Assembly: GCA_016748015.1 (NCBI GenBank)
Contig: JAAOMT010000200.1
Coordinates: 866,984-930,983, forward strand
From: Geosiphon pyriformis
Taxonomy: Eukaryota; Glomeromycota; Glomeromycetes; Archaeosporales; Geosiphonaceae
Direction of reading: 5' to 3'
Length of the DNA: 64,000 bases
Below, one piece after another: positions 13,300 to 45,700 of this stretch (position 1 is its first letter; the number at the start of each line of letters is the position of its first letter). The notes beneath the pieces were generated by a model. The model made no database searches and was not told the DNA's origin. It saw only the letters and a program-made list of their open reading frames with translations. A program made the translations under genes and the position numbers.

Positions 13300-15400
13300 G
13301 TATTTATTTTTTAAATAAATTTACATTAAATATTAAAAAAAGGTGAAAAAACCAATTACTATAATTTCATATGTAATATCTTATAAAATTTATCTTAATT
13401 ATACAATGAAAAATTATTGCATTCAACAAAATTCAATAATATATTCGTTATAATATAAATTGGTTTTTAAAAAAATTTTGTAACTTTTTTTTAATGTGTT
13501 TTTTATTGGATACAAATCATTATATATTTTGGAAGTAAATTGAAATAGTTTTTAAAACCAAACTGTAAAATTTCAACTATAATTATATAAAAAAAATTAT
13601 TAACATGTTCTTCAAAAATATTTCCTTATACTAATATGCTGTATCAAACTTTTTGCATCAAACACATATTATAATTTAAGATGTTAAATAGATATATGTT
13701 ATACCAAAATTTATATTAAATAAAAAAATAACAATAGATGAAATATACTCCTCATGAGGTTGATATTGATCAAGATCCCGAAGCTATCACGCGTACATTC
13801 CAATTACATGTGCGGCCAGCTGGGATGTTTTTCCTGAGATTCAAGTTTTCCTCGTGAGTTTTGTTTAACACCATGAACAACATCCTTTTCAAACTCGAGA
13901 AGTCACGTTGTCTACCTACCCTCTTTTCTTTATGGTATTTGATAATTGTCTTATAGAGGTATGTGGGGGAAAGGAAAGTCAGAACTAGGTCTGGTTTAAC
14001 CTCATTAAGCAAGATAGAGTTTACAAGATGAACGGTGGCCGAAGTGACTTTGAGAAAGGGAAAACTAAATGTATCATCCTCCCGTCTTTCGAGACCTATG
14101 CTCTGAAAATACGAGTCAAAAGCAGTGTACAGATTGCTGTCAGTGCTGCGGCCATATTTATTAGGTGGTACATATTTCGGAGTTGCTACATAGTTCGGAG
14201 TTGCTGGTTGATGAGGAACGTATTCAAATATCGAACGATTAAATCCGAATTTTTTTTCTATGCCTTCAAATCCATTTTCTGTTCGGAATAAAGTATGACA
14301 GAGGACTAACACTAGCTTTGGAGAGATGACGTAAAAAGAATGGTAGGGAATTTGAAATGGAACAAGAATTCCCAATCGATTCACTCCTTCAAAGATTCCA
14401 AATCCGTTGCAGGTTATTATAAACTTATCATTTTCACCGGCTTGCCAAATTACGAGAAAAGAATCGACCATGCGCAGCTCGTAAGCTTCCCTATCTAGCG
14501 TAAAGATTCGCAAGTTGTCTTTGATCTCTTCATGCGGGGTCTCTAGTATTTCACGGATGTTCTGTAACCACAATTCTTGAGGCTTTTTCAACTTCTGCTC
14601 TCGCATAAATTTTTTTACCATCAACAAAGTGAGAATATCAAAACTTTCATTGGAAAATTGGGCCCATCGATGACGGTTTCGATAGTTCATGACAAAGAGG
14701 AACTTGCGTAGATTCGAAAGGTCTCTTCTGACTAAAACGATCTGACTTTCCACTTGAGATGCCTTTATAATATCTCTAACCACTTTTGATGCTTTTTCTT
14801 CAAGTTTTGACAGTTTATCTTCTACGTGCATCGCGTCTTCGTGATTAAGATCTTTATACATGTTTAGGTATCCAAAGGTTTTCGCGACTAAAGAGATGCC
14901 CAGTTGACCGATCTTTCTATCGTAAATTTGGAGAAGTGCTTCTGCCTTATTCTTATTCCTAAAGTTCTGTTTCTGATTTTTCTGTTTGAACAGCTTTTCC
15001 TTGCTCACAAATATCCTCTCATAATTATTGATAGCAAAATTACGAAGAAGGAATCTTGGAATGTAGTGATGGTATTGATCTTCCATTATAGTTTAAGACT
15101 TAGAAGAGCACCATAATTAGGGTTTATACAAGCGTAAATGAGACACAGGTATGCAGGGTCATCTCACATGTGCTTTCGTTGTAAAATAAATATATGCACA
15201 AAGTCATTTAACATAATGGGTGTTATGAGTGTAAAACCTCGCTTCATCGAAAAATTTCTCTTTACCAATTTTTGCAATCAATTATTGCCTTAAAAGGTAC
15301 TTTGCAAAGATATGGTGATTCCTGTTAATCCGAGAAATCGTTGCCGTCGTCATTGCCGTTGTTGTCGTCATTAAAGCTATAAAATGTCTCGTTATATAAT
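13300..15400 (-). repeat. Segmental duplication, left copy
   Basis: The DUF4238 gene and its flanks match the block at about 50420-52470. On the 3' side both contain TTAAATATTAAAAA, GGTGAAAA and TTTCATATGTAAT. On the 5' side both carry a phrase of CCGTCGTCATTGCCGTTG type (15345-15370 and 52437-52465) and the same leader before the ATG. Boundaries are approximate because the surrounding DNA is nearly pure A/T. Confidence 0.75.
13770..15086 (-). CDS. DUF4238-type protein, copy A
   Basis: Single uninterrupted frame of 438 residues starting at the ATG ending at 15086. The N-terminus (MEDQYHHYIPRFLLRNFA) carries the HYIPRFLLRNF signature that I associate with the DUF4238 family, known from bacteria and expanded in some fungi; its biochemical function is unknown. 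A charged helical segment (about residues 80-105, HEDAMHVEDKLSKLEEKASK) follows, then a mixed alpha/beta body. No signal peptide or membrane segment is seen, so it is probably cytosolic. A paralogue of identical length lies at 50857-52173 in the same orientation; over the first 100 residues the two are about four-fifths identical by eye. Both frames being intact at equal length argues that both are, or recently were, under selection. The 5' and 3' flanks are duplicated too. Confidence 0.85.
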   Translation of the reverse strand: MEDQYHHYIPRFLLRNFAINNYERIFVSKEKLFKQKNQKQNFRNKNKAEALLQIYDRKIGQLGISLVAKTFGYLNMYKDLNHEDAMHVEDKLSKLEEKASKVVRDIIKASQVESQIVLVRRDLSNLRKFLFVMNYRNRHRWAQFSNESFDILTLLMVKKFMREQKLKKPQELWLQNIREILETPHEEIKDNLRIFTLDREAYELRMVDSFLVIWQAGENDKFIITCNGFGIFEGVNRLGILVPFQIPYHSFYVISPKLVLVLCHTLFRTENGFEGIEKKFGFNRSIFEYVPHQPATPNYVATPKYVPPNKYGRSTDSNLYTAFDSYFQSIGLERREDDTFSFPFLKVTSATVHLVNSILLNEVKPDLVLTFLSPTYLYKTIIKYHKEKRVGRQRDFSSLKRMLFMVLNKTHEENLNLRKNIPAGRTCNWNVRVIASGS

Positions 15401-17884: not shown

Positions 17885-19320
17885 ATGATGACTAAAAGCA
17901 ACAGTGTTACTTGGTTATTAAAAGCTCTATTTGCCATCTTTTTTCTCGAATTCGCTATCTTCATCATCTATGGTAAAAATCTTAAACGGTATGACTTTAA
18001 ATAAAAATTCTTTCACTCTAAATACTAATCTTTTAATCAAATTGGTAAAAGACCTTTTCTTGAACAAATTACCTCTGTTTGTAAAGAGCTTCCGGGAAGT
18101 AAACCCTATTAAACGTATCCACGTTATCAATCCACCTAGTAGTCATAAAACTAAACAGATTGCAAGGTCAAACCTTAGTCAAGGTGGTATCAAGAGTGAA
18201 TACCAAGTTCCTAATATAAAACGTGATCGTATTGATGAATATGCATGGTGGGCAATGCGATCATATTGTTTGGGTCAAAATAACTTGGTTGGCCCTGGGA
18301 TTTATGGTAAGTTTTAAGATAAACAATAAAATTTTACAAGTAAATCGTTTAAAAATGACCTTAAGCATTTAAATTATTCATCATATTTAGCGGCGGTTAC
18401 CGTACGTGATTACAGATTAATTTTAATGGTTAGAGGAGAATCTAGGGTTGATAATCAGCAATACTGGTCAACTCGAAATAATCAACTTGTCGACTATCCT
18501 ACAACAATTCCAGCGGCTATTGGAGCTAAAGTTGATAGAATCTTTTATGAAAACTTTCAGAGAACCAACGGACAAATTACGCCACTTATTTTATCGGCTA
18601 TAAAAGAACACAATATTAAAGTAATTGTGGCCGTTGGGCATGGTTCTGGTGGTGGTGAGACGAAATCTTCCCTCAACTTTGGTTCAATATCATCTTGCAA
18701 ATTCAATTAAAAGTGATGGTTATTTTTTTAGTCTATGCAGTGTTACAAATGTTGGAAATGATTCACTTGGATCTAAATATACCTCTGAAAGTATATACTT
18801 TTGGACAGCCGCATCTAGGCAACAGGGAATTCGTGCAACAATTTGATGATATAAACGATGGAGAAAGAATTTCTGTAAAAAGGGTGACAAACCTGGATGA
18901 TTACGTACCAAAACTTCCACTAAGTACGGAGCAGATGTTTTATGTGCAAAGTAATACAGAAATTTGGATTGAATCTGATGATTGTGAATGTCCTACGGGT
19001 AAGACCTTTATATGCCTCGGGCCGATAATTTATCAGCCTAATCGGCCTGCGATTCAGTTGGAAAGCCAGGTTAGTATTTTACCATTATGATAATTTTTAT
19101 TTTTTTAGACGTAAAAATAACTTGAATCAATTGAATACTATAGGAATGTAATGCTCAGTTTACAAACCCAAATTTTTTACCAAATAATGGCCCTTATTTT
19201 GGGTATATTATGGGAAACTGTTTAAATGACGCACCCCCTTGGATTATTTCTCCACCTGTTCAAGAAACTCTCGATCTGAATTGGTGGAAAAGGTTTTGGT
19301 CAAGACTTCTGGGCTGGTAA
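17885..19320 (+). CDS. Class-3 lipase-like secreted alpha/beta hydrolase, five exons
   Basis: Model: exons 17885-17972, 18052-18306, 18391-18654, 18732-19069 and 19144-19320, giving 373 aa with all junctions in frame. The four introns (79, 84, 77 and 74 nt) begin GTAAAA, GTAAGT, GTGAGA and GTTAGT and end in AG; the first has a CTAAT branch-like motif. Residues about 10-29 form a hydrophobic signal peptide or anchor. The body follows fungal class-3 lipases: MVRGESR at the RGT(S) position, GHGSGG (197-202) at the nucleophile elbow, VYTFGQPHLGN (223-233), RVTNLDDYVPKLP (253-265) and YFGYIMGNC (333-341). The family normally has GHSLGG with Ser at the third position, an Asp in ND.VP, and His in DH..YFG. 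Here the elbow serine is shifted by one position, Asp (D259) is kept, and the His position is Asn (N330). The protein may bind lipid or act atypically rather than as a classical lipase. Confidence 0.8.
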
Positions 19321-20783: not shown

Positions 20784-21650
20784 ATGGAACCTGATATTAA
20801 TCCAATATTTAACATAGAATTCATGGAATTTGGCCAGACTACTCTTATTGCGAAAGGTGGCTATAGTGATGTTTCATATTGTACTTAGGAATCAAAAAGC
20901 ATTAAGGTTGTATTTAAGAAACTTTTCAACTAGCTGATTTCACAAAGAGAGAAAAGAAATTTCAAACGGGAGGTATTATTTGGAGAAATTTTTAATCTTT
21001 CTAGCTTAGAAAATTATTTGAAATATCTAAACAATTTTCTACCAAGGTGAGAATTTTACACGATCTGGGTAATTAAAAAAAATCCATATATCACTCAATT
21101 TTTCGGTTTGACACAAGATAAAATTATGTCTTATTTCAGATCTTAGCGGAGACTATATTTTTGTATTACAATATGCAAATGGAGTTACACTTCGAGGCTA
21201 TTTAAAGAATCATTTTGAATTGCTTGGGATTAGTAAGAAAATTGAACTAGCGAAAAATACAATCGACGCTATAACATATTTGGACAAGAACAATATAATT
21301 AATAGAGAATTAGTGAGTTGTTTATTTAAAACTAAAAATCTTTTGATTCAATTAATTATAAATCGAAGATTTTTTTATAATTTGAGCCCTCAAAAAATTT
21401 TCTCGTACATGATGAGAAAGCGATTTTAACAAATTCTGGACTATCAAGATCAGAAAAGAATACGATTTCATCATACTAAGGTTTGTGTGGTTAGTTCCTT
21501 ACAAAGACCCAGTTACCTTTGAAGATGAAACATATAGATATACCGCAGCATCTGATATCTATTCGTTGGGCGTTTTCTATGGGAAATTGCAAGCAGCTAT
21601 CCATTGAATAAAAGTTTTACTGAGCTTGAGGAGAGTTCCTAAATTATAAG
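20784..21650 (+). pseudogene. Broken protein-kinase gene (TKL-like)
   Basis: Pieces of a kinase domain appear in order but in several frames. First, a block from ATG 20784 reads MEPDINPIFNIEFMEFGQTT and continues to the glycine loop AKGGYSDVSYCT, then a stop where a Trp is expected. It resumes ESKSIKVVFKKLFN. Next come NPYITQFFGLTQ (about 21080-21120), SGDYIFVLQYANGVTLRGYL with the alpha-helix KIELAKNTIDAITYLDKN, and INREL where HRDL should be (about 21300). Finally VTFEDETYRYTAASDIYSLG (21510-21570) covers the segment before and after the APE region. The catalytic HRD His and Asp are lost and several stops occur, so the domain is non-functional. The pattern matches the hugely expanded kinase family of Rhizophagus. 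It directly abuts the left end of the peptide array. Confidence 0.75.
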
Positions 21651-22104: not shown

Positions 22105-22387
22105 TTTTAGCATTGTCTGTGAATAGACAAGTATTTTTCGTACAACGATAACACATTTTGAAGAATACCCTTTCGAAAGTCCGTTTACGACATTGTATAT
22201 TCATATAATAGATTGTAGTACAAAGAACAATGACCAACCTTTTGCCTTTTAGACATGTTTTTGGGACATTGTTAGCGTAGCTTAACAATGCGTCTATCAA
22301 ATTTATGATTAATGGGAATAATGTTTTGGCTTTTTTAACATTCTGTTTCAATTAATATTGTTTCTAATCATATCTTTTTCTATAAAA
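22105..22387 (+). promoter_or_regulatory. Promoter of peptide copy 1
   Basis: TATAAAA at 22381-22387, 121 bp before the ATG. CAAAGAACAATG at 22221-22232. Inverted pair CATTGTTAG (22267-22275) and CTTAACAATG (22281-22290). Additional CATTGT at 22111 and 22191. AACAATG fits the HMG-box core [A/T][A/T]CAA[A/T]G, and the first element also resembles the fission-yeast Ste11 TR box; binding is inferred only. Confidence 0.55.
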
Positions 22388-22501: not shown

Positions 22502-22633
22502 ATGCAACCAACAACCAACAATCAATCTTCATTCAATCCACTCTCAATTATCGCTCCTGGCAACGGCTCAATTAAAGGACCAACTGGTGACCCAGATGAT
22601 GGTAGTGGCACTGGTCAATGCTCAATCATGTAA
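22502..22633 (+). CDS. CaaX-box peptide copy 1, candidate lipopeptide pheromone precursor
   Basis: Intronless 43-codon frame in a good start context (AAACAAAATGC). The peptide begins MQPTTNNQSSFNP, is polar and rich in Asn/Gln/Ser/Thr in its first third, and has a central Gly/Asp-rich part (GPTGDPDDGSGTGQ). It ends CSIM, a textbook CaaX motif; terminal Met favours farnesyltransferase. Fungal a-factor-type mating pheromones are made from 30-45-residue precursors of this plan: prenylated, trimmed after Cys, carboxymethylated, cleaved N-terminally and exported by an ABC transporter. The MQP start recalls yeast a-factor precursors, which may be chance. No signal peptide is present, as expected for that export route. 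Codons are identical to copy 5. Other possibilities: an unrelated prenylated micro-peptide. The CaaX call is firm; the pheromone role is inferred. Confidence 0.8.
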   Translation: MQPTTNNQSSFNPLSIIAPGNGSIKGPTGDPDDGSGTGQCSIM

Positions 22634-23530
22634 AAGTTGCAGAGTACTCACATTGAAGATACTCTTTTTTCGACCATCCCAGTAAATTGTATGAAAAATT
22701 ATCGTCGGCACTTCTTCAAGTTAATATAATGCAAATTCGGACTCTTTACATAGATATCTAGTTCTTAATAATTAACGGTCGATAGAATTACTCGCAACTA
22801 AAGGATACGGCATATTTTTATTTCACTATTATTTAATATTAATTGTGTATTAGCACTAGAGTAATATAATTTGGTTAGTTTTAACAAAATATTCTTAATA
22901 TGTAAATTTGATAATAATAGGCTTTAATTTTTGAACCAAAAAATCTTTTTTTGTCCAAGTAAAATAAAGCTATTTGGACCTTTAAAAATATCTCACTTAA
23001 TATCAAAGTGAAACTTGAAAGTCAAATAAGAACCTGTTCAATCTTTACTAACTCAACTCATAACTGATATTTACCTTGAAAATTATTAAATTTTTGAAAG
23101 TTAAGAGATTAAAGGCTTGTGATAAATATATATAAACCAATCTTTGAAATATATTTCTCCTATCAAAATTGATTGAAATTAAAATTACTGTTTTATTTAC
23201 GCTCAAATTATTCTATTCCATTTTTTTATTTGAAGTTATGAATTTTTCTTAAACATATCTTTTAACATTGAAAAAAATCTAATCTCTAATTTATACTTGT
23301 AATATGAATTGATAATAGAAGTTAAAATGCCCAAGTTTATTATACTAACAATTAAAAAAATGCCTATAAAAAAATTGCTTTTGCGAAAAACTATAACTCT
23401 TAATACTGCATTGTATTTTCAGGTTTTTTTTGTACTTTTAGCTATTAAGCATTAAAATTTTGATGCAAAATTTAGAATTTATATTTTATTGTAATCTAAG
23501 CTTAAAATTTATTGATGACTTTATAACAAT

Positions 23531-24265
23531 AGAGAGTTTGCGCTACAATGATTTCTTTGTAAATTTACTTCTAGCAGTCCCAAATGGAATTCATTGTAGA
23601 ACAGAGTTTGTGCTACAATGATTTTCCTTGTAAATTTATTTCTGCAATTGGCTAGTGATTTCACGTAATTTTAATGCAAAAGCGTATCAAATCTCACCAT
23701 ATGGAGTCCGAGAACTTGACTTTTGACAGCCTGCGAATGGCTACACTTCTGCTACTACTTCATAAGCGTCAACAGCAACTGGCCATAACAATGAAGACAA
23801 TATTTGAACCTGAACGTCCATTGATTCCCAATACGAGACTTGATCTAAATGCACTTGATGAGGGAACGTGTGTAGCATTTTTCCGGTATGAAGATAAAAG
23901 TTTTATATGATTAATGTAACAATAATGTTTTGAAAAGTATATTGAAGACAACGGCTTATAGATTCAACAAAATACAGATAGAACAACTTGTTGGGCACTT
24001 CCGAATTCCATCAGTTAGTATAGTGAATACTTATTCACTAACAATAAAAATGGTCCACAGTCTTAAAATAGGTTTGAGAATATCTCTCTTAGGTTTGGAC
24101 ATATTTTAAGACATACCTTGTCAGCTTTTGGCTACAGATTGCAAAAAATTAGATAACAAAAATCTCTTACTTGTACAAAGAATTCCGGTTTTAAATTTAT
24201 CTGTAGCCACAAATTTGTGGCTACAGATAAATTTACAAAGAAAATCATTGTAGCGCAAACTCTCT
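23531..24265 (+). mobile_element. Non-autonomous Harbinger-like DNA transposon, 735 bp
   Basis: Terminal inverted repeats of 37-38 bp (23531-23567 and 24228-24265) begin AGAGAGTTTGCGCTACAATG and differ only by one T. A third, diverged repeat of the 5' end sits at 23603-23640. Target duplication is AAT; the matching empty site (AACAATAAG) survives in unit 3 at about 28471-28478. Inside, 23674-23910 encodes a piece beginning MQKRIKSHHMESENLTF and reaching ALDEGTCVAFFRYED, and after breaks FNKIQIEQLVGHFRIPS (about 23960-24010). These resemble, from memory, the N-terminal region of PIF/Harbinger (DDE_Tnp_4) transposases. The catalytic domain is absent, so the element could move only with help from elsewhere. 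Confidence 0.75.
24192..24235. repeat. Perfect 44-bp palindrome inside the transposon
   Basis: The half-site TAAATTTATCTGTAGCCACA plus AA is followed directly by its exact reverse complement, centred between 24213 and 24214. It overlaps the inner end of the 3' inverted repeat. A related TGGCTACAG occurs near 24128. It can form a cruciform or a stable RNA hairpin. Confidence 0.85.
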
Positions 24266-25186
24266 AATAAGTATTAGAATTTGGAATGACCAAAGTGGTT
24301 TACATAAAAATTGAAAATCAAATTTGAAAAATGCAACATAATTATTGTTTAAATAGTTAAAGATGCTAATTAATCATCAAAAAACTTCTAAAGAATGCTC
24401 AATTATTTAATCAGAGATTACTACTCTTAAATTTGTAGAATGTAGGAAATACTCTCAAAAATTTCTAAAGAAAAAAAATGCCCAGATGTAAAACTCTACA
24501 TTGTTAAACACAATGGGAAAATAAAACTGACGTTATTATGAATAAATTGTCTAAACGTTAATTTAACATTTTTTATTACTATTTAAACTTCAGATTATAA
24601 AATTCAAAGAATATTTATAGTTCAAGCAGAACAATATCTACTCCAAAACTCGCATAACATCTATATTGTCGTTATAATTGAAATTTCCTTATCAAGCGAG
24701 ATGGTGCTCGAATGAAGATTAAAGATTGTTGACATAGATTCTTTAGGAAAATATAAAATTATCTAAAATTGCCCAAGTTATTTCATTCTTTAGCGGATTA
24801 AAAATTTGAATAATAAGAGTTTATAGTCAATTTTGTCATTTAAAAGGAATATTTGGAGATAAAACTTATTATTAAAATTAAATACGAATGCAAAGTGAGT
24901 TATATAATTAAACATCTTTATAATTTATTCTAAAACTAGGCGAATAATTAGCAAGAGGTTATTTAGACCTAATATAAATAAAATTTAATTTAAAAATAGT
25001 GTCATTTCTACTCAAATAAATTCTAAATTTGAAAATGAAAGTCATTTTATTCCCAATATTTAAAGTATATTTGTTTAAGAAAATTTTTAAAAAAGATATC
25101 CATTCACAATCTTAGACTCAATCAAAATTTAGATTTTGTACAACCATAACACGTTTTGAAGAATACCCTTTTTAAAAAGCCTGTTT

Positions 25187-25419
25187 ACGGCATTGTAAAT
25201 TCATCCATCCGTTCTATATTCTATAATATTGTAGTGCAAAGAACAATGACCTACCTCTTGCCTTTTTCGACTAAAATAATCAATTATAAAGGCTGATCCA
25301 TTTTTTAGGATATTGTTTGCATAGCATAACAATTCATATGTTAAATTGGAATATAATATAACTTTTTTAGCATTCTATTTCAATTGATATTGTTTCTTAT
25401 AACATCTTTTTCTATAAAA
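25187..25419 (+). promoter_or_regulatory. Promoter of peptide copy 2
   Basis: TATAAAA at 25413-25419, 122 bp before the ATG. CAAAGAACAATG at 25237-25248. The inverted pair is present in the weaker form ATTGTT...AACAAT (25312-25333). CATTGT at about 25188. Confidence 0.55.
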
Positions 25420-25534
25420 CTGGTCGTGCCTTCCCAATTTCTTTCATTCAATCCAACCAAAAGAACTTAAAGAAAAGGAAAAGAAACTGAATTCTCAAAT
25501 TCAAATTCAAATTAAATCAAATAACTTAAACAAA

Positions 25535-25666
25535 ATGCAACCAACAACCAACAATCAATCTTCATTCAATCCACTCTCAATCATCGCTCCTGGCAACGGC
25601 TCAATTAAAGGACCAACCGGTGACCCAGACGATGGCAGTGGCACTGGTCAATGCTCAATCATGTAA
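25535..25666 (+). CDS. CaaX-box peptide copy 2, candidate lipopeptide pheromone precursor
   Basis: Same 43-residue product as copy 1, ending in the CaaX box CSIM. Relative to copy 1 it has four synonymous changes (Ile16, Thr28, Asp32, Gly34) and no amino-acid change; it is identical at DNA level to copy 4. The A-rich leader carries an extra CAAATT repeat compared with copies 1 and 3. The transposon at 23531-24265 separates it from copy 1. Function as for copy 1: probable prenylated, secreted signal, inferred from length, CaaX end and multicopy arrangement. Confidence 0.8.
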   Translation: MQPTTNNQSSFNPLSIIAPGNGSIKGPTGDPDDGSGTGQCSIM

Positions 25667-27044
25667 AATTCGCAGAGTATATATATTGAAAATTCTCTTT
25701 TTTCGACCATCCAATAATAAGTGTGAAAAATTATCATCAGCACTTCCGAATTATATACTTCAAGTTAATGTAATGCAAATTTAGACTCTTTACATAGTTA
25801 TCTAGCTATTATTAATCAATATTAAAGCAAAAGTCAATAGAATTATTTATAATGAAATGATATCGCATATTTTTCTTTCACTATTTATTAATATTAATTA
25901 TCTATTAGCATTACTTTTATAAAAGTCATTGGTTTTACTAAAGTTCAAAAAAAATACTTCTAGCATCTAAACTTAATAAAGGAATGCTTTAACTGAAGAA
26001 CTATAGAACTTTTTTTTCAAGAAAAAATTTGGTTTTATATCATAAATAAAATACAGCTACTCGGGCACTTTTAAGGTATATTCTTAGTGAACTTGAAAAG
26101 TGAATTATTCAACGCAAAAATTGAGCCTTAGATATTTTGAATCCCAAAAAAAAAGAAACCTAAATAAAAAATCTGAAGTTTTTACTGCTAATAAAATTTT
26201 TGATTTTGCTGTAGGAAATGCATAACTACTATTTAAAGTAATTTTAAATGTTATGAGCCATTTTTCGCTACTTTTTTTAGCTTAATTTAAATTTTGATGA
26301 CATAACTCATTTAAGTTTTTGAATTATTGTTTCTAATTTAAAAATTTTACGGGCAAAAAAAAATTGACATAAATATATAAAGTGTCACGATAGAAGGTTA
26401 TTAGACTAGAAAACAAAAAACTAATATAATATATATTAAAATTTAGAAATAAACAGTTAAACATGACATCCTTTTTTGAAAAATAACGAATTATTTAAAT
26501 TGGGTTAAATTGTTTCGCCCTTTAGCAGGTTTCGGTTTGAATCTCTAATTAGCAGCTATTCGAATAAGGCGTTGAAATAATTAAATTACAAAGCAGGAAT
26601 CCTTACAATTAATACAGGAGAGGGTAGCAAATTTATCTAAAAACTAAAATAATAATAAGTGTCAATTTGGTATGGGTAGATCGAAAAATTCGAGCTTTTT
26701 AAAATAAATTTTCATATGCACACTTAGCAAAAAGTTTTTAAAGCCTCATAACATAAATAATATTTTTTACTAATTACTTATTAATTCAAAGTTTCTCTCA
26801 TATCAATTCAGATTAATTTTGGTATTCAAAAGCATTCCGTTTATAGATTGATACTTGTACTAAAAGTCAATTTATTCACGATTTTTTTGGTATATTTGCT
26901 TATGTAAAGGTTTTAAAAATATATTCATTTGCAATCTTAAATTCAAAGGTATTTTGCATGCTAGTGATAAATTTTCTTGCATGTAATACTCATTAGCATA
27001 CAGTTAAACATTAGAAACTGAAATAACCGAAATTAGAGTTTTTA

Positions 27045-27358
27045 ACATTGTCTGTGAATAATAAGTATTCTTTGTACAACTATAATACCTTTTTGAAGAA
27101 AACCATTTTGAAAGCCTGTTTACGGCATTGTAAATTCATGCATCCGTTCTATAATATTGTTGTGCAAAAAACAATGACCCACCTCTTGCCTTTTTCGACT
27201 AAAATAATCAATTTTAAAAGCTGATCCGTTTTTAGGACATTGTTAGTATAGCTAAACAATGCGTTTATCAAATTCATGATTAAATTGAATAATGGTTTGA
27301 CTTTTTTAACATTCTGCTTCAGTTAATATTGTTTCTAATCATATCTTTTTCTATAAAA
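27045..27358 (+). promoter_or_regulatory. Promoter of peptide copy 3
   Basis: TATAAAA at 27352-27358, 121 bp before the ATG. Element CAAAAAACAATG at 27165-27176, with one change from the other copies but the AACAATG core intact. Inverted pair CATTGTTAG...AACAATG at 27238-27261. CATTGT also near 27052 and 27126. From the TATA box to the ATG this copy is almost identical to copy 1. Confidence 0.55.
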
Positions 27359-27472
27359 TTGATCGTGTCTTCCCAATTTCTTTTCATTCAACCCAACCAA
27401 AGTAACTAAAAGAAAAGGAAAAGAAATTGAATTCTCAAATTCAAATTAAATCAATCAAATAACTTAAACAAA

Positions 27473-27604
27473 ATGCAACCAACAACCAACAATCAATCCT
27501 CATTCAATCCGCTCTCAATCATTGCTCCTGGCAACGGCTCAATTAAAGGACCAACTGGTGACCCAGACGATGGTAGTGGCACTGGTCAATGTTCGATTAT
27601 GTAA
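27473..27604 (+). CDS. CaaX-box peptide copy 3, candidate lipopeptide pheromone precursor
   Basis: Same 43-residue product ending CSIM, but the most distinct at DNA level. It differs from copy 1 by eight synonymous changes (Ser10, Pro13, Ile16, Ile17, Asp32, Cys40, Ser41, Ile42). This is striking because its leader and the 3' flank from about 27645 onward are nearly identical to those of copy 1. Thus the coding part differs more than the flanks, a sign of gene conversion in one of the two. No intron; start context as in the other copies. Confidence 0.8.
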   Translation: MQPTTNNQSSFNPLSIIAPGNGSIKGPTGDPDDGSGTGQCSIM

Positions 27605-28470
27605 AAGTTCCAGAGTATTCATATTGAAGATTCTCTTTTTTCGACCATCCCAGTAAATTGTATGAAAAATTATCGTCGGCACTTCTTCAAGTTAATATAA
27701 TGCAAATTCGGACTCTTTACATAGATATCTAGTTCTTAATAATTAACGGTCGATAGAATTACTCGCAACTAAAGGATACGGCATATTTTTATTTCACTAT
27801 TATTTAATATTAATTGTGTATTAGCACTAGAGTAATATAATTTGGTTAGTTTTAACAAAATATTCTTAATATGTAAATTTGATAATAATAGGCTTTAATT
27901 TTTGAACCAAAAAATCTTTTTTTGTTCAAGTAAAATAAAGCTATTTGGACCTTTAAAAATATCTCACTTAATATCAAAGTGAAACTTGAAAGTCAAATAA
28001 GAACCTGTTCAATCTTTACTAACTCAACTCATACCTGATATTTACCTTAAAAATTAATAAATTTTGAGAGGAAAGAAATTAAAAGCTTGCAATAAACTAT
28101 ATTTCTCTTAACAAAATTCATTGAAATTAAAATTAACTGTTTTATTTACGCTCAAATTATTCTATTCGATTTTTTTATTTAAAGTCATCAATTTTTCCTA
28201 AAAATATCTTTTAACACTGGAAAAAATCTAATCTCTAATTTATACTTGTAATATGAATTGATAATAGAAGTTAAAATGCCAAAGTTTATTATACTAAAAA
28301 TGCTTCTATAAAATATTGCTTTTGCAAAAACTATATTTTTAATACTGCTTTAAGAAAAAACAATATTACATTGTATTTTTCATGACTTTTAGCTATTAAG
28401 CATTAAACTCTTGATGTAAAAATTTAGAATTTCTTTTTTATTGTAATCTAAGCTTAAAATTTTCTTGATA

Positions 28471-28478
28471 ACAATAAG
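28471..28478 (+). other. Empty target site of the transposon in unit 1
   Basis: Unit 3 reads AACAATAAG here, where unit 1 has AACAAT, then the 735-bp element, then AATAAG. The AAT is present once here and twice around the element, which defines the insertion and its 3-bp duplication. Confidence 0.75.
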
Positions 28479-29484
28479 CATTAGAATCTGGAATGACCAA
28501 AGTGGTTTTACATAAAAATTGAAAATCAAATTTGAAAAATGCAACTTAATTATTGTTTAAATGGTTAAAGATGCTAATTTATCATCAAATAACTTCTAAA
28601 GACTGCTGAAATATTTAATCAGAGATTAATATTCTTAAATTTGTAGAATGTAGAAAATACTCTCAAAATTTTTTAAAGGAAAAAATGCCCCGATGTAAAG
28701 CTCTTTATGGTATAACACAATGGGAAAATAAAACTGCCGTTATTATAAATGTATTGTCTAAACGTTAATTTAACATTATTTATTACTATTTAAACTTCAG
28801 ATTATAAAATTCAAAGAATATTTATAGTTCAAGCAGAACAATATCTACTCCGCAACTCGCATAATATCTATATTGTTCTTTATAATTGAAATTTCCCTAT
28901 CTTCCTATTTTCGACTTAAGAATTGAAGAATGGAAACGAGATGGTGCTCGAATGAATATGAAAGATTGTTGAACATAAATTCTTTGGGAAACTATGAAAT
29001 TATCTAATATTGACCAAATTATTAATTCTTTAGCGTGTTTAAATTTGAATAATAAGAGTTGATAGTCAATTTTGTCATTTAAAAGGAATATTTGGAGGTA
29101 AAACTTATTATTAAAATGAAATACGAATGCAAAGTGAGTTATATAATTAAACATCTTTATAATTTATTCTAAAACTAGGCGAATAATTAGCAAGAGCTTA
29201 TTTGAACCTAATACAAATAAAACTTTAATTTAAAATTACTATCATTTCTATCCAAATCAATTCTGAATTTAAAAGCGTTTGTTCATAGATTGATACTTTT
29301 ACTAAGAAAACAAAAATGCTATTTTATTTCACATTCACTGAATTTCGAACATAAATCTTTCCACACATTTCACTTGTAAAGAGATTCCAAAAAAATCATA
29401 TTTAAAATCTTTAATTCAAAAGTATTTTGCATGGTAGTCATAAATTTTCTTGCATTAAGATGTTGTTAAACATCAAAAATTGAA

Positions 29485-29784
29485 TAATAGAAATTTAAAG
29501 TTCTTAGCATTGTCCGTGAATAAACATGTATTCTTTGTACAACTATAACTCAAAAGTCTGTTAACGGCATTGTAAATTCATGCATTCATTCTATAATATT
29601 GTAATGCAAAGAACAATGACCTAAAACTTGCCTTTTTCGAGTAAAAATTATCAATCTTAAAATCCGTATTTAGAATATTGTTAGCATAGCTTAACAATGC
29701 ATCTGTCAAATTTATGATCGAATTAGGCTTTTTTAATATTCTGCTTAATTAGTATTGTTTCTAATCACATCTTTTTCTATAAAA
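29485..29784 (+). promoter_or_regulatory. Promoter of peptide copy 4
   Basis: TATAAAA at 29778-29784, 122 bp before the ATG. CAAAGAACAATG at 29607-29618. Inverted pair ATTGTTAG...CTTAACAATG within 29676-29699. CATTGT near 29509 and 29568. The TATA-to-ATG leader matches copy 2. Confidence 0.55.
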
Positions 29785-29899
29785 CTGGTCGTGCCTTCCC
29801 AATTTCTTTCATTCAATCCAACCAAAAGAACTTAAAGAAAAGGAAAAGAAACTGAATTCTCAAATTCAAATTCAAATTAAATCAAATAACTTAAACAAA

Positions 29900-30031
29900 A
29901 TGCAACCAACAACCAACAATCAATCTTCATTCAATCCACTCTCAATCATCGCTCCTGGCAACGGCTCAATTAAAGGACCAACCGGTGACCCAGACGATGG
30001 CAGTGGCACTGGTCAATGCTCAATCATGTAA
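29900..30031 (+). CDS. CaaX-box peptide copy 4, candidate lipopeptide pheromone precursor
   Basis: Same 43-residue product ending CSIM. Its DNA is identical to copy 2 over the whole frame, and the leader and the first part of the 3' flank also match copy 2, so these two are the most recently homogenised pair. A deletion of about 30 bp relative to copy 2 occurs in the 3' flank, near 30130. Role inferred as for the other copies. Confidence 0.8.
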   Translation: MQPTTNNQSSFNPLSIIAPGNGSIKGPTGDPDDGSGTGQCSIM

Positions 30032-30499
30032 AATTCGCAGAGTATTTATATTAAAAATTCTCTTTTTTCGACCATCCAATAATAAGTGTGAAAAATTATC
30101 GTCAGCACTTCCGAATTATATACTTTAAGTTAATGCATAGTTATCTAGCTAATAATAATCAATATTAAAGCAAAAGTCAATAGAATTATTTATAATGAAT
30201 AGATATCGCATATTTTTCTTTCATAATTTTTTAATATTAATTGTATATTAGCATTATAGTAATATAATTTGATTGGTTTTACCAAAGGTTAAATTAAATA
30301 TCCTAGTATTTAAATTTGGTAATAAAATGCTTTAATTCAAGAGCCATAAAATCTTTTTTCTCAAAACAAAATCAAGCTAATTGGACCCATAAAAGTATAT
30401 TTCTTAATGACGAAGTGAAATTTGAAAGTTAAATAAGAAACTAGTCAATTATTACTAACTCAACTCAAAGCATTCGAATATTAAGATGATCATAAACCT

Positions 30500-32340
30500 T
30501 GTAAAAAACCAAAACCTGAATTAAAAAGTCTTGATATTTAATTTCTGAATTTAGTTTTAAAAAACTGTGAAGTCGTTTTCACCATGCAGGAAAATATTTT
30601 AAGTTAAATCAAATTTTTAAAATATAAATTATATTACTTTTAATTGTTATTTTAATTTGAAAACTTATCAGCAAAGCAGTAGCAAAAATCTTGAATTTCT
30701 TTATATAGCTTTCAAATTATTCATATATTCAGCAAAAAAGTGAAGCTTATTCTTTTATACGATTATTCCCTACTGAATAAAGCTATTTCCCAAAGTCTAT
30801 TTTGAAACTTTCCACAGAATTAATCTAGAGCCTCTGACAAGAAAACTGCGATCATTCAATTCTCAATAGTGTGAAAATCATTAAAATCAGTCATGAAAAA
30901 TTCTATGGTTTGAATTATTTAGTTATCTTAATTGTTTGATTTCTCGCTTTTGTGTTGAAGCTGGAAATTTCGAAAAAAAAATTCAAATTATCAATTCTAA
31001 GGATTTTTTGCTTTAGCAACTTTAAAACCAAGGTTTTTTCATTGAATCTATTTGTGTATTAAATATTAATAACTTATCTACTCCATTAAAATTTCAATTC
31101 TGTAATATTATGAAATTATTTCTTAATTATTTCGGTGAATTAATAAACTGTCAAAAATAAATAAAAAAATATCTCTCTCTTTGATGCTAGGGATATTAGG
31201 CTCAATTAGATTTTTATCATATTTTATATTAATCATAACTAGATTCACTCAAAATCTTGATTTAACCTAATAAAAAATAAGCCATTTTTAGAGTGTTAGC
31301 GACATTATTAAGAAAATATTCAAGGTAACAAATACTATAAAGCTATTTATTATCATTATGATACACTATAGATAACAGGAAAATGAAACCCTATTTAACA
31401 AATATTAATGCACTTAAGCAATATTTCCTCTTTGCATAAAGAATTTCTCCAAGAAAATTTGTTCCGAAAACATATATTGATATAATTCACCAAATTCTAT
31501 TTTTATCGGATTTTTGAGCACATCATGAAAATCTTGAAATTAGAAAAACTCACCCCAACAGCTGAAACAGAGATAAACCTTTGTAAAAAGTAAACAAAAT
31601 CTATTTTATTTACCCCATATTCATCTTCAAAATTATTAAGTTTTTGAAAGCAAAGTGATTAAAAGCTTGGAATTAATATATATCATCGAATTAAAATTCA
31701 ATTATTTCTCCACACTCAAAATATTCTATGGCACTATTTTTATTTGAAGTTATGAGTTTGCTTAAAAATATTTAGAAGAAATTTAAGCCCCAATTTTTAC
31801 TTTTAATATAAATTAATAATAGAAATAAAATATCGAAGTTTATTATGCTGACAATTGAAAAAATGCCTCTAAAAACGATTGCTTTTGTGAAAGAATATAT
31901 TTTTAATACTATTTTGAACTTATAGTTATTAAGCAACAAAATTTCTGATATAAATTTAGAATTTATTTTTTATTGATGAATTTATAGCAATAAATATAAG
32001 AAAATATTTTCAAGGATTATTATTTAATATAAAATTATTTAATTTTGAATATCTCAAGATTGTCAAACAAATATTTATACAAAATTCGATATAAAATTAT
32101 CCAAAATTTAGATTCATTATTATTTAGATAGTAAAATATGTTAATTTAATCATAAAAAACTTATAGAAAATACTGTATTTCTTAATATTAACGAAAAAAT
32201 AATATACAATCAGAAAATAAAATTTTTAAATTTTCAGGGTTTAGAAAATACCCTCAAAAAATTATTAAAGAACATAAATAAACAAAGTGCAAAGCTCTTC
32301 ATGGTTAAAAACAATTGGAAAATAAAACTAAAAAGTTAAA
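30500..32340. other. Spacer between copies 4 and 5; no gene seen
   Basis: AT-rich sequence. The latter half (from about 31640) again matches blocks following and preceding other copies, so it is diverged array DNA. No sixth peptide frame or CSIM-coding end was found. Confidence 0.6.
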
Positions 32341-33009
32341 AATGAAGCATTGTCTAAACGTTAATTTAAAATTTTTTTATTAGTATTTAAACTTCAGATT
32401 ACAAAATTCAAAAATATTTATAGTTCAAGCAGAACAATATCTACTCCGCAACTCGCATAATATCTATATTGTTCTTTATAATTGAAATTACCCTATCTTC
32501 CTATTTTCGACTTAAGAATTGAAGAATGGAAACGAGATGGTGGTCGAATGAATATGAAAGATTGTTGAACATAAATTCTTTGGGAAACTATAAAATTATC
32601 TAATATTGACCAAGTTATTTCATTCTTTAGCGTGTTTAAATTTGAATAATAAGAGTTTATAGTCAATTTTGTCATTTAAAAGGAATATTTGGAGGTAAAA
32701 CTTATTATTAAAATGAAATACGAATGCAAAGTGAGTTATATAATTAAACATCTTTATAATTTATTCTAAAACTAGGCGAATAATTAGCAAGAGGTTATTT
32801 AGACCTAATATAAATAAAAATTTAATTTAAAAATAGTGTCATTTCTACTCAAATCAATTCTAAATTTAAAAATGAAAGTCATTTTATTCCCAATATTTAA
32901 AGTATATTTGTTTAAGAAAATTTTTAAAAAAGATATCCATTCACAATCTTAGACTCAATCAAAATTTAGAGTTTGTACAACTATAACAATTTTTGAAGAA
33001 TACCCTTTT

Positions 33010-33258
33010 AAAAAGCCTGTTTATGGCATTGTAAATTCATCCATCCGTTCAATAATATTGTAGCGCAAAGAACAATGACCCAAATCTTGCCTTTTTCGAC
33101 TAAAATGGTCAATTTTAAAAGCTGATCCGTTTTTAGGATATTGTTTGCATAGCATAACAATTCATTTGTTAAATTTATGATTAAATAGAATATAATTTAA
33201 CTTTTTTAACATTCTGCTTCAATTAATATTGTTTCTTATCATTCCTTTTTCTATAAAA
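33010..33258 (+). promoter_or_regulatory. Promoter of peptide copy 5
   Basis: TATAAAA at 33252-33258, 111 bp before the ATG; the leader has lost about 11 bp compared with the other copies. CAAAGAACAATG at 33066-33077. Inverted pair in the weaker form ATTGTT...AACAAT (33140-33161), like copy 2. Confidence 0.55.
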
Positions 33259-33362
33259 CTGATCTTGCCTTCCTAATTTCTTTTCATTCAATCCAACCAA
33301 AAGAAATAAAAGAAGAGGAATCCTCAAATTCAGTTTAAATCAAATCAAATAACTTAAACAAA

Positions 33363-33494
33363 ATGCAACCAACAACCAACAATCAATCTTCATTCAATCC
33401 ACTCTCAATTATCGCTCCTGGCAACGGCTCAATTAAAGGACCAACTGGTGACCCAGATGATGGTAGTGGCACTGGTCAATGCTCAATCATGTAA
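33363..33494 (+). CDS. CaaX-box peptide copy 5, candidate lipopeptide pheromone precursor
   Basis: Same 43-residue product ending CSIM, identical in DNA to copy 1. Identity to copy 1 continues past the stop to about 33537; beyond that the flank switches to the copy 2/4 type, and the upstream region is also copy-2-like. This sharply bounded patch looks like a gene-conversion tract. The last copy of the array; diverged array sequence continues to about 34 kb. Role inferred as for the other copies. Confidence 0.8.
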   Translation: MQPTTNNQSSFNPLSIIAPGNGSIKGPTGDPDDGSGTGQCSIM

Positions 33495-41780: not shown

Positions 41781-42702
41781 GCCGCTATTATTATGTCTCT
41801 TTTTTCCGAAATGAAAAGGCCTTATCATTATCCAGAATGATGGTACGCTTATAACAATGTGTGTAAGCATCATCGGATTATGGAGATAAGTGACATAGAA
41901 ACGTTTCTATGTGGATTTCGAAAATTTCTGTGCACGAATTGTCAGTTTGTCGCAGATCTTTCAAGATCGAAATGATAGTGTGTTGATAGGCCTTGCCGAT
42001 TCGCATTACACTTAATCACTTCTTCCTTAGCAATAAATACTTCATCAATTTTATCAGTGGGCGCTTTGCCGTGCACACTCCAAAACATTCTGAGACACAC
42101 AACAGTTCGGATGAACTTGCGCTCATCCCATGTTCGGAGTTTTTTGTCTTCGTTTTCATTAACTTAATTTCCAGGCAGAAATCTGTTTAAAGCTCAAGTT
42201 ATCTTGATGGATTGAGTCTTCATCCAAGAGTGTTGATATGGGTGATGTCGACACTATTAGACAACGATACTATAAGCAAATCTCGTCAAGCCCAGCCACC
42301 GCTTCAAGAGCTGCTTTTGAAGATGTTTTAGATACACCTTGATTAATAGTGAATTGTTGAGAATATCTGATATTGCTACGAGCTGTTATGCGTTTTTCGT
42401 CTGCTATGATGCTCCCGTCAATAGCAGCCAGCTGCATGCGACAGATAAAGACTGTGTTGATAAAAATGTTTATGAAGAGGTCGGCAAAGTATATCCTGGT
42501 GGGTGACCACAACTTTCGAGACCATTCCGCGACTTGTTCGTAGGTGGGAAATCGAGAGAGAAGTTGCTTTGTCGCTCGATCCTCTTTTGCTTTGCACTAG
42601 AGACACGGGTATAGAGTTAATCTTTCTTGGTGGCAGAGGTGGTGAAGATGGTATCAGATGAGGTATTTATTTTCGCAAATCTTTTCTATTGGTTAAATCC
42701 AA
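41781..42702. other. Probable 5' debris of the Fanzor-like element; otherwise unassigned
   Basis: Immediately upstream of the RuvC-I region the minus strand has SDGKLTYSRKIN and farther up LDNDKAFSFRKKE, separated by stops; these may be remnants of the nuclease N-terminal half. At 42270-42606 overlapping minus-strand frames of 60-80 codons resemble nothing known. The PPR promoter should lie in the last part, but no element is evident. Confidence 0.4.
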
Positions 42703-45700
42703 ATGTTAATCATTGATTGGCTTCATCATTCGATAATTTTTTGTTTGCTTCCTTGCTTTATGGTATTCTCTGGACAAAAGCTGTCAATGTCACCAGTGCA
42801 AAAAACGCTATTCTCTTTTATACAGATTCAGCGCCTTCTATCAAAGTCTCATACTAATTCAAGGACATTGAAACATCAAGCATCCTCTAATTGTTCACGC
42901 TCTCAGCGACTCATTAATAAAGACCGCTACTATATTCTCTCTCTGAGGGTTACTTGTAAATTTCGTCCTGGGGATTTCTTCCTGTCTCCACCAACAGGAA
43001 TTAGTCGTTTTTTGAGTACAAACTGTAGCGCTGAACTCCAGGTTAACAAAGTACCAGACCTGGATAAGTCGAATATTCCTTGGACAGTAAAATGTTTTCT
43101 TGCCCTTCTGAATGAATGTGCCAATCAGGCTCATAAAGAGCGACAAATTGACCCAAATGTGATGAACGTCATGTGGGACTTATATGTCTCAATTGAATCG
43201 CAAGAAAAAGTATTTTTGAAGTTGGATGATTTCAATCTATTTATCTATATATTAAAACATTATGATCACAAAATCAAGCAACAACCATCAAAATTGATCA
43301 AGATTCTAGATGATATCAAGGAAGTCAAGCTGAAGTTTGGGAGGCAGCACTACAATACTTTGATTCAAGCACTAGGATGGAAAAAAGATCTAGCAGGTGC
43401 ACTAATGGTTTTCCTCGAACTACAATCTCATAGATTTCCACCAAATGGAGTGACTTTCGATTCATTAATGGATGCGTTCCTCTCGAGTTTTAATCACAAG
43501 GAGGCCATGAAATTATATCGGGGGCTCAAAGATCCCATTATCCCACAGGATGTTCCCATAAAATTTTTCATCAAACTTCTTAAGTTTCAATGTGATCGAG
43601 GCTATCTGAAGTCTGCGATCTCAATATATAAAGATATGATAGAGGCAGATCGACAACCCTCGATCTACGTAGCCAACGTAATCTTGAGTGCAATATGTGA
43701 ACATAATGATTTGACGACAGGCTTACAATTTTTTCGAGATAATTATCCCCCAAACGCAGCAAAAATTGCTTCTAGTTACAATATTCTTCTTACTACTGCA
43801 CTCCAAAATGACGAACGCATTATGATCCTTCAAATTTGGAAAGAAATGGTAGACAACGAAGTGGAACCAGATATAATTTCATATACACTTCTAATGCGAC
43901 TTCATCTCCGCGAATTGAAGCTCAGAGAAGCTCTCGATGTTTACACAGAGATGCTTAAAATAAATATTATTCCAGACTCTCCTATATTCCGGATTTTGGT
44001 TCAAGCGTGTGTTTTCAAGGAAGAGTGGAAACCTATGTTGCCATTTATTTGTGAAGAAATGAAACAATTCGATTTCATTGATCAGAGTTCTTTGACATAT
44101 AATATTGTTCTCAAAGCTCTTACTCAGCTTGGAATCAAGTTCGCCCAACGCGTTATGTATGATTTAATTTGTGCTGGATTATCTGTTGACAGTAGATCCC
44201 CTAAAGCTTTGATTGAAGAATACGTGTCTCGTAATGATTTACCAAGTGCCTCTCAAATCTTACAACGCTGCCAATCTCATAACATCCTCCCTGATCAACA
44301 AACATATGAAATTTTAATTCGTGCTTATATACGTGAAGGGAATATTTTACAAGTCCAAAAATACTATAGCGAATTTATTAGCAACAATAATCGCGATTTC
44401 CCTCAGAGAGCTTGGCCGAAACAAAACGATGACATATCCGGTATAAACGAATTTCTCAAATTATGTTCAAAAAACAAATTGAAATTCGGGATCGATTTCT
44501 TTGAACATATCCAAAAGCTTGGCTTCAAGGGAAACACAATGACGTACACCATATTAGTTCAATTTTTACTGGATTTAGGGCGTCGTGAAGACAATAAACT
44601 TTTAGCACGCATATACGAAAATGCATCTACCTCAAATATACAATTTCCTCTTGATATATATAATCTTTTATTGCGCCGGTTTATAATTACACGAAACACA
44701 ATATGCATGCATAAAGTCTTCGAGGATATGATGCATGCCAATCTTGAGCCCGATTCCGAAACATTCAGGGTTTTAGTAGACGGATTTAACAAATTTTCAG
44801 AAGCTGATGTATTGGAAATAGTTTATGATAAATTAAAAAAATCATTCAGTGCCAAATTGAGTAGAATTAATTACAATGGATTTATTTATGGATTCTGCCG
44901 GAATTCTAGAATGAATCTGGCTTATAAGGTATATACGGATATGCGCACGTCCGGATTGTCTCCTGATGTTATAACCTTTAGCCACTTAATCAACGGTTAC
45001 GCGAGTGAGAAAGATATTAAATCAGCACATCTGATATTCAGCGATATGCCCTTATCAGGAATTAAACCGACGATCGATATCTACCAATCTCTCATAAATG
45101 GATATATAAACTTATCACTACCATCAAAAGCCATCCAATTATATGAGGATCTGGCCAAAGTACAACCCTTTCTGATCGATAATTCGATTTATCATAATAT
45201 TATTTCGGCGTGCCTTCAAACATCAAACTTTGGGCTTGCTAACGAATTACTTAACAAAATGGAAAAAGACACAACCCCTTCCAAGAGATTCACTGGGGTC
45301 ATTATTCAAAGCATTGATCGTCAAGATCTTGGGACGGCTATTTTTATATTTGAACATATGGTAATAAAAAAAATAGAAATCACTTTATTATTATGCCAAC
45401 ATCTCGTAGAAGCTTTGTCGAAACACTCTGAATTTCCTTTGGTCCGTCGTTTATACCGTTATTTGGTAGCCCGTAAAGGTAGACGTAAAGTGCTGTTAAG
45501 TATGGCCCTCTTAAATTCTGTTATTAAATGCGCATCGATGACAAAACATACTAGATATGCTAAAAGGGTTCTCGAAGATTTACTGCGCTTTGGTTTCACA
45601 CCTTCGACTGAGACAATGAATGCCTTTATAAGTGGTCCGATCAGAGCAGGACACATTGAAGAAGCGAAAAAATTGATGGATAAAATGCGAGCTCTTTATA

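Follow-up and report, generated by a model that had tools for sequence, protein, structure and literature searches.

Candidate lipopeptide pheromone precursors encoded by a dispersed CaaX-peptide gene family in Geosiphon pyriformis

What do five short, identical open reading frames encode in the genome of a fungus from a group long treated as asexual, the Glomeromycotina? The fungus, Geosiphon pyriformis, is a glomeromycotan, though not arbuscular mycorrhizal in the strict sense. It belongs to the Archaeosporales and is described as host to cyanobacteria in the accessible part of PMC8401276. The window analyzed here, a stretch of 64,000 nucleotides on the forward strand (C380:866984-930983) of the 124.7 Mb assembly, carries on its plus strand five frames for the peptide MQPTTNNQSSFNPLSIIAPGNGSIKGPTGDPDDGSGTGQCSIM, all of 43 amino acids, free of internal stops and identical to one another. 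These frames are probably precursors of one farnesylated, carboxymethylated and secreted a-factor-type signal, read by the fungus's own STE3 receptor in partner recognition. What was observed, and carries this reading, are the genes themselves, the constraint that selection places on the peptide, its CSIM end included, a shared promoter layout, and a receptor with several processing genes.

A gene family ending in CSIM

The five frames in the window were located as follows.

22502..22633, plus strand: 43-residue CaaX peptide gene, copy 1; encodes the peptide shared by 24 copies in the genome
25535..25666, plus strand: 43-residue CaaX peptide gene, copy 2; four differences from copy 1, all synonymous
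27473..27604, plus strand: 43-residue CaaX peptide gene, copy 3; eight differences from copy 1, all synonymous
29900..30031, plus strand: 43-residue CaaX peptide gene, copy 4; four differences from copy 1, all synonymous
33363..33494, plus strand: 43-residue CaaX peptide gene, copy 5; frame DNA equal to copy 1, flanks different

Translation bore out an earlier note on this DNA, which had described five identical 43-residue frames at 22502, 25535, 27473, 29900 and 33363, and their identity is far beyond chance. The same note spoke of a five-copy family, which holds within the window but not for the genome, where a DNA search returned 35 copies on 13 contigs at 84-100% identity. A protein search of the genome gave 37 rows, and in 24 of these the match to residues 1-43 was 100% identical. 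A degenerate pattern for GPTGDPDDG occurred at 33 genomic places and its backwards control at 0. Counts from such searches are lower bounds. Copies were grouped on contigs C380 (11, the five in the window and six about 49-64 kb beyond them), C216 (6), C241 (5), C283 (3) and C318 (2), with one on each of eight further contigs.

Copy number is only approximate, because of two duplicate-like pairs and one copy joined to adapter sequence. The copies C241:314768 and C380:949174 were 98.1% identical over 2.9 kb and a C283 pair 99.5% over 1.1 kb, and both pairs may have arisen in the assembly or by recent segmental duplication. The C318:387079 copy is intact and encodes an N7S variant. Nextera adapter sequence lies in the assembly just upstream of this copy (near 2255 of the extracted C318 locus), so the joint is probably a misassembly.

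An intact 43-residue frame ending in CSIM was found in 33 of the 35 copies. The other two are broken, by a frameshift at C216:39720 and by truncation at C393:605208, a relic in which the CSIM end is still present. The identical peptide is encoded by 24 of the 35 copies, whose DNA is 0-16 of 132 bases off the 22502 copy, all changed codons being synonymous. Two further loci were rejected as family genes and look like decayed relics: C353:140157 has MQPTTNNQS in one frame and a CLIM end in another, and C83:322889 has an internal stop and no CaaX. They are an apparent case of gene death beside strong constraint on other copies.

Rates of nonsynonymous (dN) and synonymous (dS) change were estimated by the Nei-Gojobori method for 31 intact copies, among which 27 DNA sequences are distinct (351 pairs); this set leaves out the diverged peptides of C356:513196 and C216:57705. 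Mean dN was 0.0083 and mean dS 0.608 (dN/dS near 0.014), with variable sites at codon positions 1/2/3 numbering 5/2/32; when the two diverged copies were added (33 copies), mean dN was 0.0195 and dS 0.623. Cys-Ser-Ile-Met followed by a stop was conserved in 33 of 33 intact copies (TAA in 31, TGA in two, both on C318). Mean pairwise identity among 32 aligned copies (C216:39720, C393:605208 and C318:387079 omitted) was 0.86-0.91 in the three 44-base bins covering most of the frame, with 0.91 in the last full bin, then 0.74 in the bin straddling the frame end, 0.59 in the next bin, which lies entirely outside the frame, and about 0.2 at about 500 bases on either side. The family consists of protein-coding genes under strong purifying selection, and it is close to certain that its product ends in CSIM.

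These data bear on the alternative that the frames are not genes, being repeats with open frames that a mobile element or duplication in the assembly had multiplied. Copies that are both dispersed and tandem would suit it, as would the duplicate-like C241/C380 and C283 pairs and the C318 copy abutting adapter sequence. The dN/dS of the 31 copies is incompatible with neutral copying, though, and the flanks are strongly diverged; the alternative retains almost no probability and, for the family as a whole, is already refuted by dN/dS.

Existing annotation suggests a different product. Eight NCBI protein records share the start of the peptide, all named "hypothetical protein", 50-76 residues long and with other C-termini. 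None of them is the 43-residue frame, so the earlier suggestion that the frames may be unannotated was right for the frame as such and missed these eight records. Their models exit the frame at its stop or earlier, at three separate points; for one record (P0005) the tail was recognizable by eye in the DNA that follows C216:55011. On such models the frame would be a first exon whose donor is either the GTAA of ATG-TAA or a GT before it, and the product would lack the CaaX end. A plausible acceptor, TTTTTTCGACCATCCCAG, does lie about 50 nt downstream in some copies, for example that at 22502, but it is missing in copy 25535 and in divergent copies. The eight tails are moreover unlike one another, both C318 copies stop with TGA, and selection on CSIM and the stop is sharp, identity changing from 0.91 inside the frame end to 0.59 beyond it. 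All eight models reach at least 50 residues, and a 50-residue floor in the annotation pipeline would explain the survival of only the longer forms. We rejected the NCBI splice models on the unconserved acceptor and differing tails, and regard a spliced product as very improbable.

Promoter layout of the copies

Motif counts covered all 35 copies (C318:387079 being two bases out of register), and for the promoter alignment 33 copies were aligned, of which 17 chosen representatives are shown. ACAATG/CATTGT cores were enriched in the 800 bases upstream (mean 3.17 per copy vs 0.45 expected under a first-order model) and close to expectation downstream (0.37 vs 0.31). Between -450 and -130, ACAATG was the top-excess hexamer when excess was scaled by the square root of the expected count (101 occurrences vs 7.6, the expectation being taken from the remainder of the window); a few less common hexamers exceed it in plain ratio. 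It was present in 29 of 35 copies, up to five times per copy. In 19 of the 35 the cores formed an inverted pair of near-constant spacing, CATTGTT-N10 or N11-AACAATG, and the pair was imperfect in others, among them three copies of the window (2, 4 and 5). AACAATG fits the SOX/HMG-box consensus. In each of the five copies in the window a TATA-like element, CTATAAAA, stood 112-123 bases ahead of the ATG, and TATAAA filled the same alignment column in every representative (17 of 17).

22267..22290, plus strand: inverted pair CATTGTT-N10-AACAATG, putative HMG-box factor sites, copy 1
22380..22387, plus strand: TATA-like element CTATAAAA in the TATAAA column, copy 1
25311..25334, plus strand: imperfect inverted pair TATTGTT-N10-AACAATT, copy 2
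25412..25419, plus strand: TATA-like element, copy 2
27238..27261, plus strand: inverted pair CATTGTT-N10-AACAATG, copy 3
27351..27358, plus strand: TATA-like element, copy 3
29676..29699, plus strand: imperfect inverted pair TATTGTT-N10-AACAATG, copy 4
29777..29784, plus strand: TATA-like element, copy 4
33139..33162, plus strand: imperfect inverted pair TATTGTT-N10-AACAATT, copy 5
33251..33258, plus strand: TATA-like element, copy 5

Shared sites alone could reflect inheritance, the copies being paralogues. The telling point is retention amid decay: in the promoter alignment the inverted pair and the TATA element were kept while the surrounding flanks diverged. Six copies had no core, namely C216:57705, C356 and C393 (diverged or broken), C241:290223 (upstream mostly N), C318:387079 (adapter joint) and C216:34211.

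The exact pair with a spacer of 8-12 bases occurred at 37 genomic places, 19 of them upstream of family copies, and its backwards control at seven. A wider regulon defined by paired sites was rejected, as 15 of the 18 non-family places belong to one dispersed repeat (14 loci similar to L037) and three do not. No second CaaX family was evident at the non-family paired sites, where the few short CaaX-like frames were mutually unlike and were taken as chance. The repeat is a diverged family in its own right (loci L037-L051) that carries CATTGTT-N(8-11)-AACAATG variants and, on what was observed, has no relation to the peptide genes.

Receptor, processing genes and the predicted signal

A genome search with the STE3 profile (PF02076) returned one gene, with two exons at C303:334886-335392 and 335440-335808. 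Its product, NCBI G9A89_010645, is 526 amino acids long and matched the profile over positions 1-292 of 292 (E 3.1e-70). Relatives were returned from Ambispora gerdemannii (52%) and Diversispora eburnea (46%, partial), along with one unnamed fragment; no Rhizophagus protein was returned although STE3 is reported there, which marks a limit of the search. For STE2 no match was found in the genome and none in control genomes either, so its absence is not established. Prenyltransferase alpha repeats (PPTA) were found at two loci (C320 and C368) and ICMT matches at two (C80 and C282). The Ste24 N-domain matched on C306 (E 4.9e-44) in a stretch with three stops, a pattern expected of introns or of a broken copy. 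Searches of PDB sequences with the peptide and the receptor gave no informative match.

The earlier idea of a candidate lipopeptide pheromone is strengthened, because the frames are genuine, constrained genes with a conserved CaaX end and a complete STE3-type partner is encoded in the same genome, next to Ste24-, ICMT- and prenyltransferase-alpha-type matches. The peptide family is likely the STE3 pheromone of Geosiphon, and we lean, with somewhat less assurance, towards a role in mating.

In the proposed mechanism, the TATA promoter and paired HMG-box sites would drive the copies together, and the 43-residue precursor would be made without a signal peptide. A farnesyltransferase would modify the Cys of CSIM, a Ste24-type protease would remove the SIM tripeptide and ICMT would methylate the Cys. 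The N-terminal part would be cleaved, perhaps after N21, leaving a lipopeptide that a Ste6-type transporter may export and that may activate STE3 on another hypha or on the same one. Expression, each processing step, export, STE3 binding and the mating role are what we infer.

The peptide might instead be prenylated and kept inside the cell, anchored to membranes and never secreted, for example as a small regulator of prenylated GTPases. A CaaX end by itself does not imply secretion, and a hydropathy scan, the sole method applied here, found no strongly hydrophobic, signal-peptide-like stretch in the 43 residues. Precursors of the a-factor type likewise have no signal peptide, and an intracellular role would leave thirty dispersed near-identical copies and an STE3 with no known ligand unexplained, which makes it unlikely.

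A somewhat better, still doubtful, alternative is a secreted prenylated peptide that serves as a symbiosis or colony signal (in hyphal self-fusion, in quorum sensing or towards Nostoc), possibly through STE3. Pheromone machinery does host sensing in Fusarium, according to the accessible part of PMC4771724, and one peptide type with one receptor per genome would fit self-signaling, just as a high copy number would fit a dose-driven signal. Control of pheromone genes by an HMG-box factor is, on the other hand, a mating feature in smuts, as described in the available text of PMC3248468. Nothing specific points to a role in symbiosis.

For the a-factor reading, the peptide was compared with Saccharomyces cerevisiae MFA1 and MFA2 precursors. 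Aligned without gaps from residue 1, the peptide and MFA1 shared 11 of 32 positions (M1, Q2, P3, T5, S15, N21, I24, K25, G26, D30 and P31). The local score against MFA1 was reached by 15 of 20000 shuffles of the peptide (41 of 20000 with the CSIM end fixed) and the in-register identities by 0 of 20000. N21, I24-G26, D30 and P31 were invariant across eight Geosiphon peptide variants. The yeast a-factor precursor is cut after N21; if the register is meaningful, a cut after N21 would predict a lipopeptide of 19 residues, G22-C40. Schizosaccharomyces pombe M-factor and Neurospora crassa MFA-1 showed no likeness to the peptide. The a-factor likeness is suggestive; convergence or chance are possible sources, and homology is not claimed.

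Several observations weigh against a precursor of an STE3-read mating pheromone. The likeness to MFA2 was weaker than that to MFA1 (111 of 20000 shuffles, 160 of 20000 with CSIM fixed, 3058 of 20000 in register), that to MFA1 dropped to 494 of 20000 once the first five residues were removed, and a-factor was picked as comparator after the likeness had been noticed. Two peptide variants matched no Pfam family at E<=10, MFA1_2 (PF17317) included, to which the MFA1 control matched at E 1.7e-18. The protein database (nr) returned no relative outside Geosiphon at E<=10 among eight candidates in each search, an absence that is weak because the method requires shared 5-residue words and missed the reported Rhizophagus STE3; STE3 is nonetheless shared with at least two other genera, yet peptide relatives among proteins were found only in Geosiphon. 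The Rce1 family (PF02517) was without match in the genome. The STE3 gene and the peptide genes lie on different contigs, and paired sites are absent from the STE3 promoter, where the closest cores upstream stand at -937 and -947; with no paired site near the STE3 start, co-regulation of receptor and peptide genes is not supported and was rejected. An intact copy with a readable upstream region, C216:34211, has no ACAATG core, which weakens a strict requirement for it, and as many as thirty copies are not needed for a mating signal.

Other frames in the window were recorded as part of the neighborhood. Two related 440-residue DUF4238 (PF14022) frames, at 13773-15092 and 50860-52179 (both minus strand), flank the region 37 kb apart. 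A frame at 18659-19087 (plus strand) has a partial lipase class 3 match, and one at 21112-21426 (plus strand), just upstream of the first peptide copy, a weak partial protein-kinase match. At 42697-46494 (plus strand) a single open frame of 1266 residues contains many PPR repeats.

Comparison with known pheromone systems

Lipopeptide-STE3 signaling has, to our knowledge, so far been tied to Dikarya, and if the present reading is true it also operates in Glomeromycotina, beside or instead of trisporoids. On balance, we favor the view that Glomeromycotina have in this peptide their first lipopeptide pheromone for sex or partner recognition, encoded by some thirty dispersed genes with paired HMG-box sites and read by a previously ligandless STE3. 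The defined 43-residue precursor is an exact molecule to test on the receptor, and the combination of short CaaX frame, identical copies and HMG-pair promoter is a search template for the ligand in Rhizophagus, Gigaspora, Ambispora and others; sexual signaling in Glomeromycotina therefore becomes directly testable.

Baker's yeast makes one a-factor signal from more than one gene (two copies), and its precursors have no signal peptide. The Geosiphon peptide is like it in being encoded by more than one gene, in its short precursor without signal peptide, in its CaaX end and in the presence of an STE3-type receptor in the species. It differs in having eight residues (DDGSGTGQ) between DP and the Cys where a-factor has one, in a presumed mature part without an aromatic residue, in Met rather than Ala as the CaaX X, and in 33 intact copies against two in yeast. 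Mature a-factor is given as YIIKGVFWDPAC(S-farnesyl)OCH3 in the available text of PMC7035247.

The predicted modification also resembles the basidiomycete mfa/pra systems, in which farnesylated, carboxymethylated CaaX lipopeptides are read by STE3-type G-protein-coupled receptors. In smuts, the HMG-box factor Prf1 drives pheromone-responsive genes through ACAAAGGGA elements, and at most two precursor genes per locus lie at the receptor locus (PMC3248468, accessible part). The HMG sites of Geosiphon are putative, their core AACAATG/CATTGTT differs from ACAAAGGGA, and its precursor genes are many and dispersed, with the receptor elsewhere.

Among glomeromycotans, a 2019 survey describes Kex2-processed alpha-pheromone-like peptides with STE13 signatures in Rhizophagus irregularis (PMC6339444), so "first" is limited here to lipopeptides. 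The note's remark that no described pheromone peptide from an arbuscular mycorrhizal fungus was known to its author likewise stands for lipopeptides, and needs qualifying for the alpha-like peptides in the available text of that survey, where the terms "CaaX", "farnesyl" and "a-factor" are absent. A glomeromycotan CaaX peptide was not reported in the accessible parts of the literature surveyed, and the Geosiphon genome paper (Curr Biol 2021) may mention one. Both species have candidate pheromone-like peptides, but those of R. irregularis are alpha-type, with a signal peptide and KEX2-cut repeats, and are not described as prenylated in the available text (PMC6339444), whereas the Geosiphon peptide lacks a signal peptide and ends in CaaX.

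Mating-related genes were up when two R. irregularis isolates coexisted, with no pheromone genes in the accessible text of that 2020 ISME J paper (PMC7490403). Halary et al. (2013) had reported STE3, STE6 and most of the signaling path in Rhizophagus and Glomus cerebriforme, and no a-factor- or alpha-factor-related gene, naming divergence and short length as possible reasons (PMC3834313, available part). The Geosiphon pathway is like theirs in its single STE3 gene (PMC3834313) and unlike it in supplying, in another genus, a candidate lipopeptide ligand.

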